A program made the translations under genes and the position numbers. A model generated the notes under the pieces. That model saw only the letters and a program-made list of their open reading frames with translations, did not search any database and was not told the origin of the DNA. Positions 4,060 through 46,614 of a DNA stretch of 64,000 bases are shown one piece after another. Source of the stretch: Candidatus Poribacteria bacterium (GTDB lineage: Bacteria; Poribacteria; WGA-4E; WGA-3G); contig JAPOZO010000063.1 of NCBI GenBank assembly GCA_026706025.1, positions 248,001 through 312,000 of the forward strand. Reading direction: 5' to 3'. Position 1 is the first letter of the stretch. The number at the start of each line of letters is the position of its first letter.

Positions 4060-4360
4060 ACTCAATTTCCTTTTCGATGCGTGGTCGCAAACGTGGTTTG
4101 AGCGAATCAGCGATGACGAGGTCAATCTTCTTCTGAAATAGATCTTCGAGAAAAATACGGAGCTCCATATACCGGTCAAATGATACTTCCTCAAGTTCTA
4201 CAAGAAAATCAATGTCGCTTTCGCTATGAGCAGTGTCTTTAACATAGGATCCGAAAAGTCCAAGCCGTTTCACACCGTAAGTTCTCAGCGTATTCTGGTG
4301 GCTGAGAAGTGTCTGTTTGATCTCGCGTTTGGTAAGGGTTACTGTATTCATATTGTACAT
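4043..4360 (-). CDS. MntA-like minimal nucleotidyltransferase (antitoxin)
   Basis: A 105-residue protein with the nucleotidyltransferase signature GSYVKDTAHSESDIDFLVE, that is Gly37-Ser38 followed by Asp49 and Asp51. In MntA/HepT toxin-antitoxin pairs MntA adds AMP to the HepT RNase and blocks it. The partner HepT gene follows directly with a 17-base overlap but carries a premature TGA, so the pair is probably no longer a working toxin-antitoxin system. ATG at 4351 (MNTVTL), preceded by GGA at suitable distance, is as plausible a start as 4360. Confidence 0.88.
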   Translation of the reverse strand: MYNMNTVTLTKREIKQTLLSHQNTLRTYGVKRLGLFGSYVKDTAHSESDIDFLVELEEVSFDRYMELRIFLEDLFQKKIDLVIADSLKPRLRPRIEKEIEYVAGL

Positions 4361-4395
4361 TCCGTGTCACGGCACAACGGGATATGCCTACACTT

Positions 4396-4770
4396 TTATA
4401 CTGATGCGAATTCTCGGTGCAAATGCCCGCGACGGGCATCAGGATGAATCACGCTCACCCACTGCACCCCTTTAACAACATCGTCTGGGGTATGTCCATG
4501 CTCAACACCTTTCGGTGTGACGACCAAATCCCCAGGACCGATACGATAGGATTCGGATTGACCATCAGCCGTTCGGAGCGTCACGGTTGTTGTGCCTTCG
4601 GTGAAATACCAATACTCATCGAAATCGTGATAGTGAAGCTCAGTCGGGTTTTCTTTCGAAACAGCGAAAGCTCCAATCGTCGTCATATCTGGGGTATCCA
4701 AAACTTTCCCAAGTGTATCCCCGATCCGTTCTCCTTCACCGAGCCGAATAACGCAAAGATTCGTATCCAT
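4396..4770 (-). CDS. Small single-domain cupin protein
   Basis: A 124-residue cupin. Motif 1 is visible as ELHYHDFDEYWYFTEG (two His and an acidic residue for metal binding) and motif 2 as GDLVVTPKGVEHGHTP. Such stand-alone cupins are often sugar isomerases, epimerases or binding proteins, and the substrate here cannot be read from the sequence. The start codon overlaps the stop of the upstream TIM-barrel gene (TAATG), so the two are probably translated together and act in one sugar-related pathway. Confidence 0.85.
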   Translation of the reverse strand: MDTNLCVIRLGEGERIGDTLGKVLDTPDMTTIGAFAVSKENPTELHYHDFDEYWYFTEGTTTVTLRTADGQSESYRIGPGDLVVTPKGVEHGHTPDDVVKGVQWVSVIHPDARRGHLHREFASV

Positions 4771-5531
4771 TAGATGACCCCTATATCTTTTAGGTGTTGC
4801 AACGAATCTGCCACGCGTGCTTTGGCGCCAGCTTCGTCAAGGTTTTCGCCTTCAACACCCTCTAATTCCATAGTGAAAGGACCGTAGAAACCGGCATCGT
4901 TCAGTGTCTGAAAGACCGCTTTAAAATCAACCACGCCTTCACCGAGCGTCGGAAAATGCCACGTGCGATAGCCGCCGTTTGTGTCCTTAAGGTGAACCGC
5001 ACCGACGTGTGGAATAACCTTCTGGACTTCGCCAACAGCCGTCACATTATGGTTGTAATAATAGACGTTGCCTGTATCGAAATTGACACAGATATTCGGG
5101 TGGTTAACCGCTTGCATCGTCTCAAGCGCGATGTCGCCGTTGTGTATCAAATCCGGGTGTGTTTCCAGGCACACCTTAATCCCCGCGGGTGCAGCGTTCT
5201 CGCCGATAGCGCGGAGTCGATCGTATACGGCACTCCGGTCTGCGTCGCCAGCGTGCGCGCTGACAAATATTACCTTCACACCCATCTTGTCGGCAATCTC
5301 TAATGTTGGCTGGAAGTCGGAAACAACCGTTTCAGACTGAACGTCGCAACGCCCTAAAAGGCTTGTGGCGGTGAGCCCGTGTGCTTTCAAATTTGACTGA
5401 ACTTCGCCGACAGATTCAGCCGAAGGCACACCGATCTCCACATTCGTCAAACCGATTTCTGCCAAGTGCGTATATGCATTGGCACCAAACTGTCGATAAC
5501 TGCCTAAGTTACATGCAATAATATTTTCCAT
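4770..5531 (-). CDS. Sugar phosphate isomerase/epimerase (xylose-isomerase-like TIM barrel)
   Basis: A TIM-barrel protein of the AP-endonuclease-2/xylose-isomerase-like family, about 253 residues. Typical strands are VCLETHPD, ICVNFDTGNVYYYN, HVGAVHLKDTNG and GPFTMELEG, which carry the expected Glu, Asp and His metal ligands. These enzymes interconvert or dehydrate sugars, often in inositol or rare-sugar catabolism. ATG at 5531 is preferred because AGGAG lies four bases upstream; a longer start at 5546 overlaps the stop of the VWA gene. It is followed by the cupin gene with a TAATG junction. Confidence 0.85.
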   Translation of the reverse strand: MENIIACNLGSYRQFGANAYTHLAEIGLTNVEIGVPSAESVGEVQSNLKAHGLTATSLLGRCDVQSETVVSDFQPTLEIADKMGVKVIFVSAHAGDADRSAVYDRLRAIGENAAPAGIKVCLETHPDLIHNGDIALETMQAVNHPNICVNFDTGNVYYYNHNVTAVGEVQKVIPHVGAVHLKDTNGGYRTWHFPTLGEGVVDFKAVFQTLNDAGFYGPFTMELEGVEGENLDEAGAKARVADSLQHLKDIGVI

Positions 5532-11834: not shown

Positions 11835-11916
11835 CAGCGGTCTCTAAAACGGGTTGTAGGTGTGACTGAAACTACGACTCTCTAAAAAGGGTCAATCGCG
11901 CAAACTTGATGTGAAC

Positions 11917-12285
11917 ATGCAAAAGACAATTGTCTGGGGAACTGTCATAGGTGTAATCATCCTCGTAGGAATTGGAATGATCTATGCCTTGCGCGCGCCG
12001 CGCACAGTCCCAAAAACCTATCCAGCGGATAAGGGTCCTAATTTTATTGATGTTACTGCTTATCCTGTGAAGATGCAGGAGACTTACGAACTTTTTACCA
12101 ATAAATGCAGCCGGTGCCATACAGTTGCGCGCCCCATTAACTCTACCTTCACGCCGGAAGAGTGGCGAAAATATGTATATAAAATGATGCGCAAGCCAGG
12201 TTCAGGGCTTACGCCGAAAACTGCTGAAAAGGTAATTGAATTCCTAATTTACGATGCGCAACATAGGGAGAGAAAGGGAAAATGA
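11917..12285 (+). CDS. Membrane-anchored cytochrome c-like protein
   Basis: About 122 residues. An N-terminal membrane helix (IVWGTVIGVIILVGIGMIYAL) anchors one haem-binding domain outside the membrane. The haem attachment motif CSRCH is followed by HTVARPINSTFTPEEW and YKMMRKPGSGL, where one Met may be the sixth ligand. The stop overlaps the start of the selenocysteine TlpA-like gene (ATGA), so the two proteins are probably made together and may exchange electrons in the periplasm. GTG at 11911 is an alternative start; neither has a good ribosome site. Confidence 0.82.
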   Translation: MQKTIVWGTVIGVIILVGIGMIYALRAPRTVPKTYPADKGPNFIDVTAYPVKMQETYELFTNKCSRCHTVARPINSTFTPEEWRKYVYKMMRKPGSGLTPKTAEKVIEFLIYDAQHRERKGK

Positions 12286-13412
12286 TTGTTACTCGCAAAC
12301 TTCGCTCTATAGTCGGACTCTCAACGTTGCTGGTATTATTTTTCGTAATGGGTGTACAAATGGGGTTCGCTGAAGGGGATGGTATGAAGAAAGAGAATTT
12401 TCAGGTTTCAATAGATGCGCGGCGCGTTACATTTACCGCACCACCTATTTTCAAAAATGGCACATGGTTAGTGCCTTTAAAACCCTTTGCTGAGCAACTC
12501 GGGTTGAAGATAGAATATCCAGAAGGATCGGAGATGGTGGTTTTGTGCGGCGGTGTAGAATTAGAACTGTGTGTACCGCTTCGATTCCAAGATGACAAAG
12601 ACGGTGCTTTGGATATTGACGGTGTAACTTATGTACACCCGACTCACATAGCCGAAGTCTTTGGCTATGAAATTTATGAAGCATCAAAGAACCGATTGGA
12701 AGTGATCCATCCGGCGCACCTCGCTCCCGAATTCACGCTCCCCGATTTAACTGATACCCCAAGACATTTGCGGGATTTCCGAGGCAAAAAGACGTTTCTC
12801 TATGTTTGGGGTTCGTGGTGAGGCTGCCGTGGACAACTGCCGGGCTGGCAGGAATTTTACGCTAAACATAAAGAAAAGTTGAACTTGGTCTCAATCGCAC
12901 TTGATGCACAAGGCGCATCTGTGGTACGTCCTTGGCATGATGCCGCGGATGCCGATTTTGTTACACTCGTTGATTCACAAAATATTTTCGGCACTCGCTA
13001 TAACCTCAAAGCGATTCCTTATGGTGTCATGATTGACGAGTCGGGTCGCCTCGTTAAAGCACCTTTCAATGTCAATGTCAAGAATCAGAAAACGCTTGCA
13101 ATGCTTGAAAAGTGGTTGTCAGACCCCGACTACAATGCGATGCTACTTCGTGAGATGAAACCATCAAACGGGTCAACTGCAAAGACGAACGCCGAAGCGG
13201 CTGCTCGTTTTCAACTCGGACTCATCTTACTGGAAAATGGTAAAAAGGACGAAGCAATGACAGAATGGCGAAAGGCACTCGCGTTAGACCCACAAAACTG
13301 GATTATCCATAAGCAAATTTGGGCGGTTGAGCATCCAGACAAATTCTATAAAGGAAGCGTTGATTACGGTTGGCAGAAGGCGCAGTTAGAGGTTGAGAAG
13401 AGTGAACCGTAA
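12282..13412 (+). CDS. Selenocysteine-containing TlpA-like thioredoxin protein
   Basis: One frame of 376 residues if TGA at 12819-12821 is read as selenocysteine. Residues 1-31 are a signal peptide. Residues 40-145 resemble a copper-amine-oxidase-N-type domain (SIDARRVTFTAPP, WLVPLKPFAEQLGLKIEY, GVTYVHPTHIAEVFGY). Residues 148-290 are a TlpA/thioredoxin domain: APEFTLPDLTDTPRHLRDFRGKK, FLYVWGSW, then TGA, then GCRGQLPGWQEFYAKHKEKL. In ordinary TlpA proteins this place is W-C-x-x-C-R, so the TGA falls on the first catalytic Cys and the motif becomes U-G-C (Sec180, Cys182), one residue shorter than C-x-x-C. Later come IPYGVMIDESGRL (the cis-Pro region) and a TPR-like tail (ARFQLGLILLENGKKDEAMTEWRKALALDP). 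A stem-loop lies 15 nt after the TGA. A simple nonsense mutation is the alternative, but the frame stays intact for 196 codons. Confidence 0.82.
12837..12851 (+). promoter_or_regulatory. Candidate bacterial SECIS of the TlpA-like gene
   Basis: After TGA (12819-12821) come 15 bases, then CTGCC (12837-12841), loop GGGCT, and GGCAG (12847-12851). The stem is perfect and the loop starts with G, which is the base the published bacterial SECIS model asks for among the first two loop positions. The distance of 20 bases from TGA to the loop is within the known range. Confidence 0.6.
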
Positions 13413-27580: not shown

Positions 27581-30463
27581 CTACTTCATGATGACCATCT
27601 TACGTGTTGCCGATGAATCAGGTGTGCTCAGTTGGTAGAAATAGACACCTGAAGCGAGCCTTTCCCCCAAATCGTTCCGTCCATCCCAGTAAGCGGCACG
27701 TGACTTCCCGATGTAATACCCCGCCTGTTGGAATCCGAGGTCCAAATGCCGAACAAGTTGTCCTGCTGATGAGTAGATGCGAATTGCGACTTCAGCGTCG
27801 TTTGCCAACTGATACGGCAACCACGTTTCTGGATTGAACGGGTTCGGATAATTGGCAAGCAGTACAGTCCGTTTTGGGATCAGGTCAGCCGGTGTGAGTC
27901 GAAGTTCAGTGAACGCTCGGTGAAGGTCTGCGACACTAATTTCGTGTTGGAGGGTGCGAATGAGTTCCCCGGTGGTATCACGGACTTCAATCGTCAGCGT
28001 ATCACCAACAGAGACAACGGCGTGGCGGTTCATATCTGCCCAAGCAGCGTGGAAACCGTTAGCGGCAGCCGCTTCGGCAACTCTGGTGTGCTTGTTGTAG
28101 ACAGTGAGCGTTACGCCACTAATGCCTTCAAGCTGCGCCCGTAAAACAAATGCCCACGTTTTCGGAATTGATGGCTGCAGCGGAGCCGCTGCCGTCGGTG
28201 GAGTGTTTTGCCAAGCACTACCACTGAAACTTACAGTCTTCGGTGTAGTGACGTTGACAATGTATCCCATTCCACCTTCAATCGGGAATCCGTTGCCGGT
28301 AGAATTCGCCGTGAATCCGGTGAATTGTTGTGTAGCGACATCGAATTCAATAACAGTCGTCGCACCAGTTTTTTCCATGAGTGAACGTGCTGTGTAGGGT
28401 TTGTTTGGCATGAGTGGTAGGCTAATCATGTTCAAACCTGTGCTGAGTGCGATATCAAAAGCGTTTTCGGCTGCCACCGGCACAACCAGGCTGTCGGCAC
28501 GGAATGCGAGGTTTTGGATACGTTCATCGTTTTCGGGGCCAACATCTGTCAGGTCAAAGGGTGTTTCGGCGAAGTTCGCCGCAAGGTATTCGGCGAGCGC
28601 ATCTTGTTCTGTCCCGGGATTAGCGAAGATTGCCTGTCCACCAGATTGCGCCTCTGTCATCGTTTCAGTAAGGTCAACGCGATGCGTATTCGGGAAATTA
28701 GCATACGGATAGTCGTCTCCACCATCAACAAGGAAAGTGATCGTGACCATTCGGAACGTGCGATCCGCATCGCCCACGATTTCACCATTCTGGGCAATTG
28801 TGTCCATCGGGTTTCCATCTGTGTCGGTAATGACAAGCGACTGAACCCTTGAACCCTCCGGCAGTGAAGTATCAAAGCTGAACGCCATGCCTGCGATTTG
28901 TGGGAAACGTCCGGGGGTTGAGCCTTCACCAGAAGCAGCAACTGTGTGTTCGATGACTTCAAGCAGTTCCGCTGCGCTTAAGGTCAAAAGTGTCAATCCG
29001 TTATTGAATCGAAGCGTATTTTCGATGTCAATTTGTGAAATCTGACCCATCGTTTTACCGACCAAAGCATTCGCAGGCGGAGGGAGCAATTCTCCATAGG
29101 CAGCCACGCCAATCGATGCACGAATACCGCCGCCATTTTTCAAAGACACAACGACGCTTGGGTCAACTTGTTGCCCCGCAGCAAGGTTTGCCTCGGCGAT
29201 TAGGTTACCGATGTTTGTTTCCTCTGTGCGGATAGAACCACGGTTCCCGTTCAGATAGACACTCGTTTGTCCGAAAATATTGCCATCCTTTTCAGTCACG
29301 ACATTCCGTACCGCTTCCGTAATTTCGACCACGCGTGCTGCCGGTTCCGCATTGCCCGTGTCTACAACACCTTGTTCGTCGGTGACAAAGGCACCGCTAA
29401 CTGTAGCGTCAATCGATTCGGCAACTAAGACACCTGAGGCATCAAAATCGACGACCAACCGTCCGACGTATCGGTAGTTCCCATCTGTACCGACAATCGC
29501 AATCGGTTCGCCTGATGCGGATTGTGTCAAGATCGGATAGGGACGGTCTGCAGTATCACCGGGATGGAGGCGATCCGTTTCATCGGCGAGGCGTGTGTTT
29601 GAACCGCCAGCAATAATAATGTCAACATCCTTGATGTGTGCTGCGATGGCTTCATCAAGGCTAATTTGTTGGAGGTGCCCGGTAAGAATAATCTTATTGA
29701 TGCCTGCTGCTGTCAGCGCGTCAACGGATTCTTGAACGATGGCTGCCAATGCCGCCATATCGTTCGGATCTGCGGGGGCAATGCCGACGTTTCCGGGTAC
29801 AGAAAGACTGCCGAGCTGTGGCGTTGTCATACCGACAACACCGATTTTCTCGCCGGAAGGTGTCGTAATAACGACGCTCTTGGTGATACTATTCGGAATT
29901 GTGCTCGCTTCCTGTCCTGGTTCAACAACAAGAGCAGCGAGGTTGCTATCAAGGCCGAAATCTAAGTTCGCGCTCAAGAATGGGAACGCTGTTCCAACAT
30001 ACTCTCTATCTGCTGCAATCAAACTCGCAAGTGTACCCGTCCCTGCGTCAAATTCGTGATTTCCAAGGGCGCCCGCCATGAAGCCCATCGCGTTGAGCAT
30101 CAGAATATCGGCGCGTCCTGAACCCTCGCGTCCTAATACTTCACGAAGGCTCCCGTTATTCGCAGCCGCAAAAAACGGGCCGGGAATATAACTATCACCG
30201 GCACCGATGATCACTGTATTTTCTACTTCGGCTTTGAGTGCGTTCAGCACGGATGAGAAGCGAGGCGCGTTTTCGAGTGCCTCAATACCGCCCTCCATGT
30301 CTGCTGCGTGGAGCAGTTGAAGTGTAGTTTGAGACGAGGGGACCTCGCCGTTTTGGGAAAAGGCAGGTGTGAGAAGACCTAACAGTAAAATTGAGAAAAC
30401 TATTTTTGTAATATGGGCTTTCAGCCCTATAACATTCGGAACGACAGGTTCCTTATTCTGCAT
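27581..30463 (-). CDS. Exported 5'-nucleotidase with C-terminal FlgD/T9SS-like domain
   Basis: A 960-residue protein. Signal peptide at residues about 18-38. The metallophosphatase domain contains LLHAADMEGGIEALENA, IIGAGDSYIPG, GALGNHEFDAG and LTGHLQQISLDEAIAAH, and the 5_nucleotid_C domain begins near NIGNLIAEANLAAG and holds LKNGGGIRAS. A beta-rich middle part follows (LSTGLNMISLPLMPNKPYTA). The last 85 residues (LLANYPNPFNPETWLPYQL, WDGRNDLGERLASGVYFYQL, KMVIMK) are the FlgD-Ig/sorting-like domain widespread in secreted proteins of several phyla. It probably releases phosphate from nucleotides outside the cell. AAGGAG lies before ATG 30463. Confidence 0.92.
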   Translation of the reverse strand: MQNKEPVVPNVIGLKAHITKIVFSILLLGLLTPAFSQNGEVPSSQTTLQLLHAADMEGGIEALENAPRFSSVLNALKAEVENTVIIGAGDSYIPGPFFAAANNGSLREVLGREGSGRADILMLNAMGFMAGALGNHEFDAGTGTLASLIAADREYVGTAFPFLSANLDFGLDSNLAALVVEPGQEASTIPNSITKSVVITTPSGEKIGVVGMTTPQLGSLSVPGNVGIAPADPNDMAALAAIVQESVDALTAAGINKIILTGHLQQISLDEAIAAHIKDVDIIIAGGSNTRLADETDRLHPGDTADRPYPILTQSASGEPIAIVGTDGNYRYVGRLVVDFDASGVLVAESIDATVSGAFVTDEQGVVDTGNAEPAARVVEITEAVRNVVTEKDGNIFGQTSVYLNGNRGSIRTEETNIGNLIAEANLAAGQQVDPSVVVSLKNGGGIRASIGVAAYGELLPPPANALVGKTMGQISQIDIENTLRFNNGLTLLTLSAAELLEVIEHTVAASGEGSTPGRFPQIAGMAFSFDTSLPEGSRVQSLVITDTDGNPMDTIAQNGEIVGDADRTFRMVTITFLVDGGDDYPYANFPNTHRVDLTETMTEAQSGGQAIFANPGTEQDALAEYLAANFAETPFDLTDVGPENDERIQNLAFRADSLVVPVAAENAFDIALSTGLNMISLPLMPNKPYTARSLMEKTGATTVIEFDVATQQFTGFTANSTGNGFPIEGGMGYIVNVTTPKTVSFSGSAWQNTPPTAAAPLQPSIPKTWAFVLRAQLEGISGVTLTVYNKHTRVAEAAAANGFHAAWADMNRHAVVSVGDTLTIEVRDTTGELIRTLQHEISVADLHRAFTELRLTPADLIPKRTVLLANYPNPFNPETWLPYQLANDAEVAIRIYSSAGQLVRHLDLGFQQAGYYIGKSRAAYWDGRNDLGERLASGVYFYQLSTPDSSATRKMVIMK

Positions 30464-33443: not shown

Positions 33444-35402
33444 TTAGGGCCACGGGAAGAACGGGGCTGGGACATTTGCCGCCCAGCTGACGAGCGACCA
33501 CACAACCGCCATGCTGAATTCCCCGAAGACCATGCCTAAAAAGAAAGGGCGAAATCGCTGATACTGCCGAATTCCACTGTAACGGAGAAGTGGCGTTTTG
33601 ATCCCCCACGCGATTAAGACGGGAAACCAGAACACAATCAGTGTCCACGAAGCCGATAACGCATACCCAAGGGGGTGCAGGGGCCACCACCAGTATAGCA
33701 TTCTCAAAATGACCAAACCGGTCGTCACGAATATGCCTATCCCGAAAAAAAGTCCGCCTGTCGTGCGGTGGTCTGTGCCTAATCCCTCCATCGCCGCGAT
33801 GTTGTCCTGAAATGCCCAAAGCGGATTCCCGCGATACGTGTAGCCATACATATAGTTCGCACCGTGGGTGTAGGGAAGCCAGAGATGGATAGCTGCTGCG
33901 GTTATGAACGCCAACGTACTGCCTAATACGAACACCCCGACCAACGACCGATAAGACATTCCCACCCGATCCCTGATTTTTAAGCCGTCAAGGAAGCCTG
34001 TCAGGATTAACCCGCGCTGATCGCGAGTGAAAATTGCATCGAGGAACGACAGCACGGTGAGACTCTGCGCGCCTAATGAGGCTTTGCTCGCAATGAGTTG
34101 ATATAAATCTAATGGTCGAAACGATGTTTCTGTCATCAATAGACCACCTTCTGCTGTACTACGCGCCATCACAACCGCAACAATGCAGATATAAACCAGT
34201 ATCTCAAATGCTGCAAACCCTAAGTTCAGTCCTGCCGCGTAGCACCAACCTATCGCAAGGATCAAGCTGACGATAAGTCCCCAAACTGCTGTCCGGTAAG
34301 ATAGGAGCTCCTCAGTATCATCTGTTTTGTTTGCGCTGAAGGCGTGACGAAATACACGTCGGAAATGTGGTAATCCCATATAGATAAACGAAATTACCAG
34401 CACCATATAAGCACCTGCGACTTGGTAGCCGATATAGAGACGGGTTGGATAGAGCGGCATAGTGCTGACTCGCCAACCAAATATCGCAGCGACAACATCT
34501 TGGAACCGTGTGAGAAGAAAGAAGAACCACAGACTGAAAAGTAGTTGCGTGGGGAGTAGATAGAAAAAGCCTATCGCCGCGAAAGAGAGAAAAATCGGTG
34601 TGTAGACCATAGCGTTGAACGGTCGTTCTGTAAAATATTGATTGAGTACGTACCTCAGCGAGATGTGGGGAATTTGGGGCCAGATTTCATGAAGTCCATT
34701 TAACGTAAAAATGAATGCTGGCAGTGCAAACCCAACCCACATAAGCCTATTCCGAAAGAAACCGCGCCCCTCGTGGACGAACTCAAGCGGGAGCGAAACT
34801 AACGGAAACGAGAGTTTCTCGTTTTCAATCCACTGTTTCCGCAAAATTGCTGCCAAGCAGAGAAACGCAGTGAACACTAAAAAGACCAGCACGCCCCAAA
34901 CGCACAACGGCTCTAACCACGCTCGCCACGGGATAGCATCACCGGTTTGTATACCTTCATAGAAACTGCTGGCAATAGGTGCTTGCCCCGGTTGTTCAGG
35001 CGAGAATGGCACTAACCACGGCTTGATATGTGGAAAGAAGAGGGTATCCCAGCTGTTGGTTTCGTTGGTAAAATAGTTGACTGCGATGAGAGCAGGGATG
35101 AGTTTTTCCATGACCCCGCGCGACGAAATCATTGACGCAACGAGCATCATGCAGTAGATACACATCAATTCGCGCGGGGACAGCGCAAACCGATCGTTTA
35201 GTTTGGCAAGCAACCGATTCCCTAATACCAAGAAAAAGAACAACCCGATTACTGCTGGTGGCAGCTGTAAAAACCCGATTTGGATGTAGGTAATTACTAA
35301 TTCGGCGTAAGAGACGATGCAGCATATTAGGATAACAAAGCAGATACCGAGCAGGAGGGAACGCGCAGATAGGCGATTTTCGTTCGAGGAAGGCAATAGC
35401 AC
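33444..35402 (-). CDS. DUF6785/DUF6784-like polytopic membrane protein
   Basis: A 652-residue membrane protein with about 14 hydrophobic helices, the first at SLLLGICFVILICCIVSY. The phrases ALSPRELMCIYCMMLVASMISSRG, FFPHIKPWLVPFSPEQPG and KQWIENEKLSFPLVSLPLE are typical of a family seen often in Planctomycetes and Poribacteria-like genomes and annotated DUF6784/6785. The family has been compared to oligopeptide transporters, but no substrate is known. It is convergent with the PLP enzyme (18 bases) and has no neighbour in its own transcript. Confidence 0.8.
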   Translation of the reverse strand: MLLPSSNENRLSARSLLLGICFVILICCIVSYAELVITYIQIGFLQLPPAVIGLFFFLVLGNRLLAKLNDRFALSPRELMCIYCMMLVASMISSRGVMEKLIPALIAVNYFTNETNSWDTLFFPHIKPWLVPFSPEQPGQAPIASSFYEGIQTGDAIPWRAWLEPLCVWGVLVFLVFTAFLCLAAILRKQWIENEKLSFPLVSLPLEFVHEGRGFFRNRLMWVGFALPAFIFTLNGLHEIWPQIPHISLRYVLNQYFTERPFNAMVYTPIFLSFAAIGFFYLLPTQLLFSLWFFFLLTRFQDVVAAIFGWRVSTMPLYPTRLYIGYQVAGAYMVLVISFIYMGLPHFRRVFRHAFSANKTDDTEELLSYRTAVWGLIVSLILAIGWCYAAGLNLGFAAFEILVYICIVAVVMARSTAEGGLLMTETSFRPLDLYQLIASKASLGAQSLTVLSFLDAIFTRDQRGLILTGFLDGLKIRDRVGMSYRSLVGVFVLGSTLAFITAAAIHLWLPYTHGANYMYGYTYRGNPLWAFQDNIAAMEGLGTDHRTTGGLFFGIGIFVTTGLVILRMLYWWWPLHPLGYALSASWTLIVFWFPVLIAWGIKTPLLRYSGIRQYQRFRPFFLGMVFGEFSMAVVWSLVSWAANVPAPFFPWP

Positions 35403-45603: not shown

Positions 45604-46614
45604 TTAATTTGACGTTTCCAAAGTTTTAAAGAAGTTAACTAAGTCTGTTCCGTGTGTACTGGCGTTGACCGCTTTATCAATTTCTACGATCTTCCCTGTT
45701 TTATCAATGATAATCGCCATTCGCTGGATTTTGCCATCTGGCGTGTCCGTCGCGCCGTACAAAAGCGCGAGATTGCGTCCAGCGTCTACCAAAAGCGGAA
45801 AATTCAACTGGTTTTCTTCCGAAAATTTTTGACGCGAATCCGCGTCATTGTGGGTGATCCCGAAGATCTGGGCATCATGTTTCGCGAAACTACTCGACTC
45901 ATCACGGAGCGAGCAAACTTGTGCCGTTCAGCCACGCCCGAAGTCGCGCGGGTAAAACGATAAGACGACGTTCTTTTTCTCGATTAACCCACTGAGTTGA
46001 TAACTTTTGCCTGTACTATCAGTTGCGATGAAATCTGGGGCAGATTGCCCAACTTCTATCTTCGGTAGCACTTTCTTAAGCAGCGCGGCGACATCTTCAC
46101 CGTGCGTTTTGACATTAACTTCTGTGTCGATGGCGCGGATGTATCCCGCTTTATCTATGATGAAAGTCGTCCGTTTTGAGGCGTTGAACCTTTCCATAAC
46201 ACCGCTGTACTGTTTACTCACCTCAAATTCGGTGTCCGCTAACAGCGAAAACCCAAATTTCTGTTCTGCTCTGAACCGTTTATGTGATTTGACATCGTCA
46301 ACACTAACACCGAAAAGGACACTCTCGGTTGCTTCTATCTCGCTCAAATTATCCCGGAGCGAGCAAAGTTCTGCTGTTCAGCCACCCGTAAAATCTTTTG
46401 GATAAAATGCGAGAACGATATTCTTTTTTCCTAAGTAGTCGCTGAGACGCCGCTCAGTACCCGATTCATCTTTCAATGTGAAGTCGGGGGCGATCATTCC
46501 TACTTTTAGTGTGTCTGGAGTTTTCACTGCTTTCTCCCCTGAAGCTGCTACAATCAAAATGACTGTCGTGAGGATAACAGCCAACACGCTTACATTAAGT
46601 CGCGTTTGAAACAT
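45604..46614 (-). CDS. Fused double peroxiredoxin with two selenocysteines
   Basis: One continuous frame of 336 residues if two TGA codons are read as selenocysteine. Residues 1-30 are a signal peptide. Domain 1: APDFTLKDESGTERRLSDYL, VLAFYPKDFTGG, TGA (Sec79), TAELCSLRDNLSEIE, GVSVDDVKSHKRFRAEQKFGF, TTFIIDKAGYI. Domain 2: APDFIATDSTGKSYQLSG, VLSFYPRDFGRG, TGA (Sec229), TAQVCSLRDESSS, FPLLVDAGRNLALLYGA, MAIIIDKTGKI. In bacterioferritin-comigratory-type (PrxQ) peroxiredoxins this is D-F-T-P-G-C-T-x4-C, so each TGA is the peroxidatic Cys and the resolving Cys (84 and 234) stays five residues later. It reduces peroxides, here probably in the periplasm. Two independent nonsense mutations at exactly homologous catalytic sites are very unlikely. 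Confidence 0.9.
45893..45913 (-). promoter_or_regulatory. Candidate SECIS of peroxiredoxin domain 2
   Basis: After TGA (45930-45928) come 14 bases, then CTCGCTC, loop CGTGAT, GAG, a bulged T, CGAG. Stem of seven pairs with one bulge; G is the second loop base. It has the same spacing and the same left arm as the domain 1 element. Confidence 0.55.
46339..46363 (-). promoter_or_regulatory. Candidate SECIS of peroxiredoxin domain 1
   Basis: After TGA (46380-46378) come 14 bases, then CTCGCTC (46363-46357), an 11-base loop CGGGATAATTT and GAGCGAG (46345-46339). Perfect seven-base-pair stem; G is the second loop base; 21 bases lie between TGA and the loop. Confidence 0.6.

Follow-up and report, generated by a model that had tools for sequence, protein, structure and literature searches.

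A predicted U-G-C selenoprotein of the TlpA/ResA-like family and its overlapping cytochrome c gene in Poribacteria

Does the in-frame TGA of this locus end a gene or encode selenocysteine, and what would the protein that spans it do? We analysed a window of 64,000 nucleotides from a Candidatus Poribacteria bacterium with a genome of 6.27 Mb (closest named relative among the matches listed: a Candidatus Poribacteria MAG, 94% identity). Translated with TGA as selenocysteine (U) and compared with its homologues, the frame at 12282-13412 of the forward strand encodes 376 amino acids and ends in TAA. Its sole in-frame TGA is codon 180 (12819-12821); 196 codons follow it, and the translated active-site stretch reads ...KKTFLYVWGSW-U-GCRGQLPGWQEFYA... 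An earlier note, made from the letters alone, had placed this TGA between a W and GCRGQLP in a long open frame. That description is exact: the residues are ...LYVWGSW-U-GCRGQLPGWQ..., and the U of W-U-G-C-R takes the place of the first active-site residue in a ResA/TlpA-like thioredoxin domain. The note had also read the codon as selenocysteine, a reading supported by the conservation of the codon, the conservation of a hairpin behind it, and the sel genes. The TGA at 12819-12821 almost certainly inserts selenocysteine.

We examined the codon in related genomes. A homologue with one TGA was present in 50 of the 59 genomes of the bacterium's own family, and a TGA-containing homologue in 59 of 85 genomes of the Poribacteria phylum; identity fell to ~30%, and all homologues found there had the TGA. 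The aligned codon was TGA in each of the 63 loci read from 59 genomes, in the surroundings W-[GA]-S-W-U-[GA]-C-R. Among the matches listed from named genomes (n = 80), 72 loci carried TGA, seven carried Cys (W-C-G-C-R), the replacement that the earlier note had proposed to look for, and one carried Glu (W-E-L-C-R). The named-genome scan reached Poribacteria, Actinomycetota and Pseudomonadota as well as Chloroflexota, Planctomycetota, Armatimonadota, KSB1, Acidobacteriota, Verrucomicrobiota and Latescibacterota; among the matches listed, most relatives from the last seven phyla had the TGA form. C-x-C and U-x-C are therefore alternative states of a single shortened active site.

The protein continues past the codon in every case: no homologue ending at the TGA was found, residues after it are conserved, and synonymous changes were at least as numerous as replacements in most close relatives. 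All 83 distinct TGA sequences have a Cys at position 182 (C182, 12825-12827), the partner residue of the U-x-C motif. Because the same TGA recurs in independent genomes from other assemblies, it is no sequencing error, and a misread TGG or TGC, which the earlier note had considered, can be set aside. Two homologues have peculiarities of their own. L070 (G009, 4107-5178) is broken by a frameshift past the active site, reflecting either sequencing error or decay. L157, from the Acidimicrobiia, has the Glu codon GAA at the Sec position (W-E-L-C-R) and is nested among Acidobacteriota Sec forms; a search of its genome for tRNA-Sec gave no match.

The bacterium has the means to decode UGA. The four genes that the earlier note had named for a search, selA, selB, selC and selD, were all found in its genome: the tRNA-Sec gene (selC, 78 bits) lies directly beside selB, and selD (G000:C56:238667-239590), of the Sec type, itself holds one in-frame TGA. 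Where other members of the phylum were examined and had a complete selD, that gene likewise contained an in-frame TGA. A tRNA-Sec match was obtained in 52 of the 59 family genomes. The seven genomes without one all have the selenoprotein gene (7 of the 50 carriers), as expected of incomplete MAGs: most of them have selB or selD above cut-off, and the exceptions are less complete assemblies. Outside Poribacteria, tRNA-Sec was present in 22 of 25 genomes with the Sec form versus 2 of 8 with the Cys or Glu form (Fisher p 0.0017). In one study of sponge-symbiont genomes, Poribacteria bins included, most were reported to contain SelA together with SelB, and most relatives of those symbionts to lack them (PMC5649159).

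Could TGA simply be a sense codon here? If it had been reassigned lineage-wide to another amino acid, or were read through by a near-cognate tRNA, the frame would be open as well. However, 8 of the 32 large ORFs of the window stop at TGA, the adjoining cytochrome gene among them, so that we rejected a general reassignment; the Sec machinery is complete, and Cys occupies the same position in relatives mostly devoid of tRNA-Sec. The probability of this explanation is negligible.

Behind the codon lies the hairpin CTGCC-GGGCT-GGCAG (12837-12851), the perfect stem-loop 15 nt past the TGA that the earlier note had described exactly. The bSECIS model calls for a loop of 3-9 nt, a stem of 4-16 bp, a G within the first two loop positions and a distance of 16-37 nt from the UGA (PMC13188914). 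The hairpin fits it, with a 5-nt loop located 20 nt from the UGA, a stem of 5 bp, and G as the second loop base in 82 of 83 sequences. The stem is built by the codons of L-P-G-W-Q, which force part of it, and our null therefore consisted of redrawing synonymous codons from each gene's own usage in the 83 distinct TGA sequences. All five pairs were kept in 83 of 83 sequences versus an expected 24 +/- 4 (maximum 39), a gap that overstates significance, and is not a p-value, as the sequences are related. The outer codon pair was CTG/CAG in 72 sequences, TTG/CAA in 10 and TTG/CAG, which retains a U-G pair, in one. TTG/CAA is a compensatory double change from C-G to U-A, and the TTG form was seen in three Poribacteria families, Planctomycetota, KSB1, Chloroflexota and Acidobacteriota. 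Such compensatory changes in separate lineages are firmer support than the distance from the null.

The presence of the hairpin alone proves little because it can also arise in Cys relatives that share these residues: the stem is kept in 4 of 7 Cys forms (null 2.8), and one Cys form has CTG/CAA, with the outer pair broken. Its minimum free energy is -13.2 kcal/mol, no better than that of shuffled sequence (z -0.61). Selection on the hairpin is shown by its conservation, not by its folding energy. A chance hairpin made by the L-P-G-W-Q codons was ruled out by the synonymous-codon test together with the compensatory changes. A rival account takes the TGA for a genuine stop, for damage in a pseudogene or for a misassembly, with the downstream part dead or restarted at TTG 12879 as a separate protein. 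It agrees with where standard annotation would end the gene and with nothing else, and is vanishingly improbable given the same codon in 59 phylum genomes and in other phyla, conserved residues past the TGA and ahead of any start codon, an otherwise intact frame, and a hairpin under selection.

What kind of protein does the full frame encode? The earlier note had recognised a copper-amine-oxidase-N-like front, a thioredoxin domain and a TPR-like tail, and Pfam matches bear out all three: Cu_amine_oxidN1-like (PF07833, 7.5e-9) at residues 44-94, AhpC-TSA/Redoxin (PF00578/PF08534) at 146-260, running across the TGA, and TPR (PF07719) at 306-339 (13197-13298). The protein starts with a hydrophobic helix (12282-12356; residues 5-25 of the model), an export signal or membrane anchor, followed by the N-domain (12384-12728) and the thioredoxin domain (residues 146-281, 12717-13124). 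An AlphaFold2 model had a mean pLDDT of 88.8 (91 in the N-domain). In this model, ResA was the best structural match of the thioredoxin domain (1st9: Z 18.4, rmsd 1.9, 133 aligned residues); TlpA (Z 16.0), DsbE/CcmG (Z 15.9) and PrxQ-type peroxiredoxins (Z ~15) scored lower. U180 occupies the first catalytic position of the ResA fold and C182 that of its partner; the invariant P246 would fit the cis-proline.

The flanking domains carry marks of their own. C89 (12546-12548) and C97 (12570-12572) are the only invariant N-domain columns in 24 sequences that include Sec and Cys forms, and the model places them on neighbouring strands of a beta-hairpin (85-90 and 96-102). Short Chloroflexota forms have neither the N-domain nor the Cys pair. 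A Foldseek search with the N-domain fold gave no hit below E 0.001, and the top named ones were weak, mostly E. coli amine oxidase chains, in agreement with PF07833. At the other end, the signature KQIWAxExPxxFYxGxVDYxWQ (residues 344-365, 13311-13376) is conserved about as strongly as the active site: Q345, W347, A348, P352, F355, Y356, D361, W364 and Q365 are invariant in alignment A1, Q345 and W347 in alignment A2. The core of this signature is common to Sec forms, Cys forms and the short Chloroflexota forms that lack the N-domain.

The earlier note knew of no protein that combined a U-G-C site with such a front and tail. This claim to newness fails, as the protein belongs to a catalogued selenoprotein family (NCBIfam NF041054, PMC13188914, PMC2398784). 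A 2008 ocean metagenome survey counted 46 'Prx-like (UGC-containing)' sequences (PMC2398784), and Table 1 of a 2026 review names a 'UGC-containing TlpA disulfide reductase family protein' (PMC13188914); both entries denote a predicted selenoprotein with a thioredoxin fold and Sec-Gly-Cys for Cys-x-x-Cys, as here. The window protein has the features of that family, namely PF00578/PF08534, a ResA fold and W-U-[GA]-C-R, and by sequence it is a member of the broad U-G-C TlpA/ResA-like family. Its best curated profile was NF041054, WAxxUGC_long (ResA-like WAxxUGC motif-containing protein), followed by ResA, StoA and TlpA, with no peroxiredoxin among the best. It scored 154 bits against an NF041054 cut-off of 300 and therefore represents a sister clade outside the model. 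The other scanned Sec forms and the Cys form L137 were in the same range (135-181 bits); only the Cys form L154 passed, with 530 bits. L154 shares the U/C-G-C site, the N-domain Cys pair and a related tail. In relatives the profile matches N-domain, thioredoxin domain and tail, spanning profile positions 26-323 of 354 in L071. Because L154 has the same Cys pair, the architecture characterises the wider family and is not specific to Poribacteria. On the other hand, the window protein has W-G-S-W where NF041054 is named for WAxxUGC, and the tree separates the Sec forms from the clade of L154.

In this tree (maximum likelihood, 50 rows) a branch with 100/100 support separates a six-member Cys clade, mainly Pseudomonadota, from the other 44 rows, almost all of them Sec forms. 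Nested among these 44 are a Cys form from Verrucomicrobiota and a Glu form from Actinomycetota, both best read as losses of selenocysteine, although the root was placed by midpoint only. The motif was also as the earlier note had it, one residue shorter than C-x-x-C: among the matches listed, all Sec forms had U-x-C, Cys forms had C-x-C, and C-x-x-C was absent. The window protein has the fold and the predicted export in common with ResA, CcmG (DsbE) and TlpA, and its gene is linked to that of a c-type cytochrome, but those three are C-x-x-C proteins that contain no selenium, and the window protein adds the N-domain and the TPR-like tail to its U-x-C. Sec thioredoxins and thiol:disulfide interchange selenoproteins (U-x-x-C) likewise have Sec at the first catalytic position, with a motif one residue longer and another domain architecture. 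The papers on UGC TlpA proteins give motif and domain only (PMC13188914; PMC2398784). The literature searched contained no mention of the Poribacteria clade, its Cys pair, its tail signature or its cytochrome partner, no paper joining Poribacteria with selenoproteins, and none naming WAxxUGC. New here are the ATGA overlap with the cytochrome gene, the invariant Cys pair of the N-domain and the C-terminal signature.

The gene neighbourhood provides a candidate partner. Immediately upstream on the same strand, 11911-12285 encodes a small membrane-anchored monoheme cytochrome c (CSRCH; haem-binding match PF09098); the TGA that ends this gene and the ATG that starts the selenoprotein gene overlap within ATGA (12282-12285). 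An identical 4-base overlap was found in 43 of 45 close genomes; in one of the others the cytochrome gene is 857 nt off, and one has no cytochrome nearby. C-S-[RK]-C-H is kept in 44 of 44 cytochrome copies. The next gene upstream encodes a transketolase and lies at a variable distance, whereas the cytochrome-selenoprotein pair is fixed. We looked for a conserved neighbourhood beyond Poribacteria and found none: the distant forms have unrelated neighbours (glycosyl hydrolase, TonB receptor, biotin carboxylase, aminotransferase, DUF6785). A DUF6785/DUF6784 protein is encoded in the window as well (33444-35402, reverse strand), and in the distant relatives L072 (2516-4456) and L076 (2833-4818) another is found a short way ahead of the selenoprotein gene. 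On balance we lean towards a functional link between selenoprotein and cytochrome within the close Poribacteria; the linkage says nothing about the rest of the family.

The best overall explanation, which we consider likely, is an exported selenoprotein of the U-G-C TlpA/ResA-like family with the cytochrome as its likeliest partner. Fold and predicted export point to an extracytoplasmic thiol-disulfide oxidoreductase, a role the protein probably has. Sec180 would attack an extracytoplasmic substrate at a disulfide (or an oxidised thiol), C182 would resolve the mixed selenide-sulfide, and a membrane or exported thiol donor would then reduce the Sec-Cys bond. A Sec-first site of this kind would be expected to combine fast attack on disulfides with release via the second residue; for comparison, a C-G-C peptide has a potential of about -167 mV, a value close to that of PDI (PMC2672033, PMC4316792). 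C89 and C97 could either form a cross-strand disulfide with a structural role or serve as a second redox station. Given the gene overlap, the likeliest substrate or partner in Poribacteria would be the CSRCH cytochrome, through reduction of its CxxCH before haem attachment or through electron exchange with the mature protein. ResA and CcmG reduce apocytochrome CxxCH before haem attachment, and apocytochrome reduction is a tentative assignment for the specific role, less likely than not. The bacterium's own genome also encodes ordinary ResA-like paralogues (W-C-G/P-P-C); thus the selenoprotein is not the sole candidate apocytochrome reductase, and as a Sec enzyme beside ordinary C-x-x-C proteins it would be dedicated rather than general. 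The fullest version of the scheme, in which Sec180-Cys182 acts on the CSRCH cytochrome and C89/C97 serve as an internal second redox station, is more doubtful still.

The strongest competitor is a general disulfide isomerase or reductase for exported proteins that is not specific to the cytochrome. The PDI-like potential of C-x-C peptides (CGC -167 mV; PMC2672033, PMC4316792) is consistent with it, the TPR tail suggests protein binding, and distant relatives have no cytochrome neighbour; it is a serious possibility that falls short of an even chance, as the tight ATGA overlap in 43 of 45 close genomes argues for the cytochrome. A selenium-dependent peroxidase of the peroxiredoxin type, with Sec180 peroxidatic and C182 resolving, is unlikely. 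Selenocysteine does favour peroxide chemistry, AhpC-TSA and Redoxin are the top Pfam matches, and the U-G-C family appears under Prx-like in the 2008 survey (PMC2398784), but ResA is the closest structure (Z 18.4 versus ~15 for the PrxQ type), the best curated profiles are WAxxUGC, ResA, StoA and TlpA, and the same genome encodes a separate and clearly peroxiredoxin-like Sec protein. It is very improbable that the UGA acts as a selenium switch, yielding a 179-residue N-domain protein under selenium shortage and the full enzyme under ample supply, an outcome inherent in UGA decoding and compatible with the N-domain being a complete predicted fold.

The peroxiredoxin-like protein came from a scan of the window for TGA codons flanked on each side by an open frame. 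It is an exported tandem two-domain PrxQ/BCP-like peroxiredoxin (45604-46614, reverse strand) with one TGA per peroxidatic position (46378-46380 and 45928-45930). The two sites read FYPKDFTGG-U-TAELC and FYPRDFGRG-U-TAQVC, with the resolving Cys five residues after each U, and the nearest NCBIfam family is thioredoxin-dependent thiol peroxidase/PrxQ. It was present in 64 of 83 phylum genomes, nearly always with both TGAs, at identities down to 52%. A literature search for a tandem double-Sec peroxiredoxin found none, and this protein is possibly more novel than the U-G-C selenoprotein. UshA-like proteins include listed selenoproteins (PMC13188914), and the window encodes a 960-residue protein with a 5'-nucleotidase C-terminal (UshA-like) domain (27581-30463, reverse strand); the same scan raised no flag in that gene.

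Taken together, these results give substance to a family that has been an entry in selenoprotein tables since 2008 without an assigned function: the Poribacteria clade offers a partner gene, an invariant Cys pair, a conserved tail and a series of Sec and Cys forms on one tree. The 300-bit cut-off of NF041054 leaves out this clade and the other scanned Sec forms, and their genes are therefore probably truncated in public annotation. The repeated exchange of CTG/CAG for TTG/CAA is a natural demonstration of bSECIS pairing within coding sequence. The U-G-C protein and the double-Sec peroxiredoxin are concrete products of Sec machinery like that reported in sponge symbionts (PMC5649159). If the proposed action on the cytochrome is true, the pair would represent a Sec variant of either cytochrome c maturation or electron transfer from thiols to a cytochrome, and a selenium-dependent route for thiol electrons to a cytochrome would be one reason why the phylum retains its Sec machinery.
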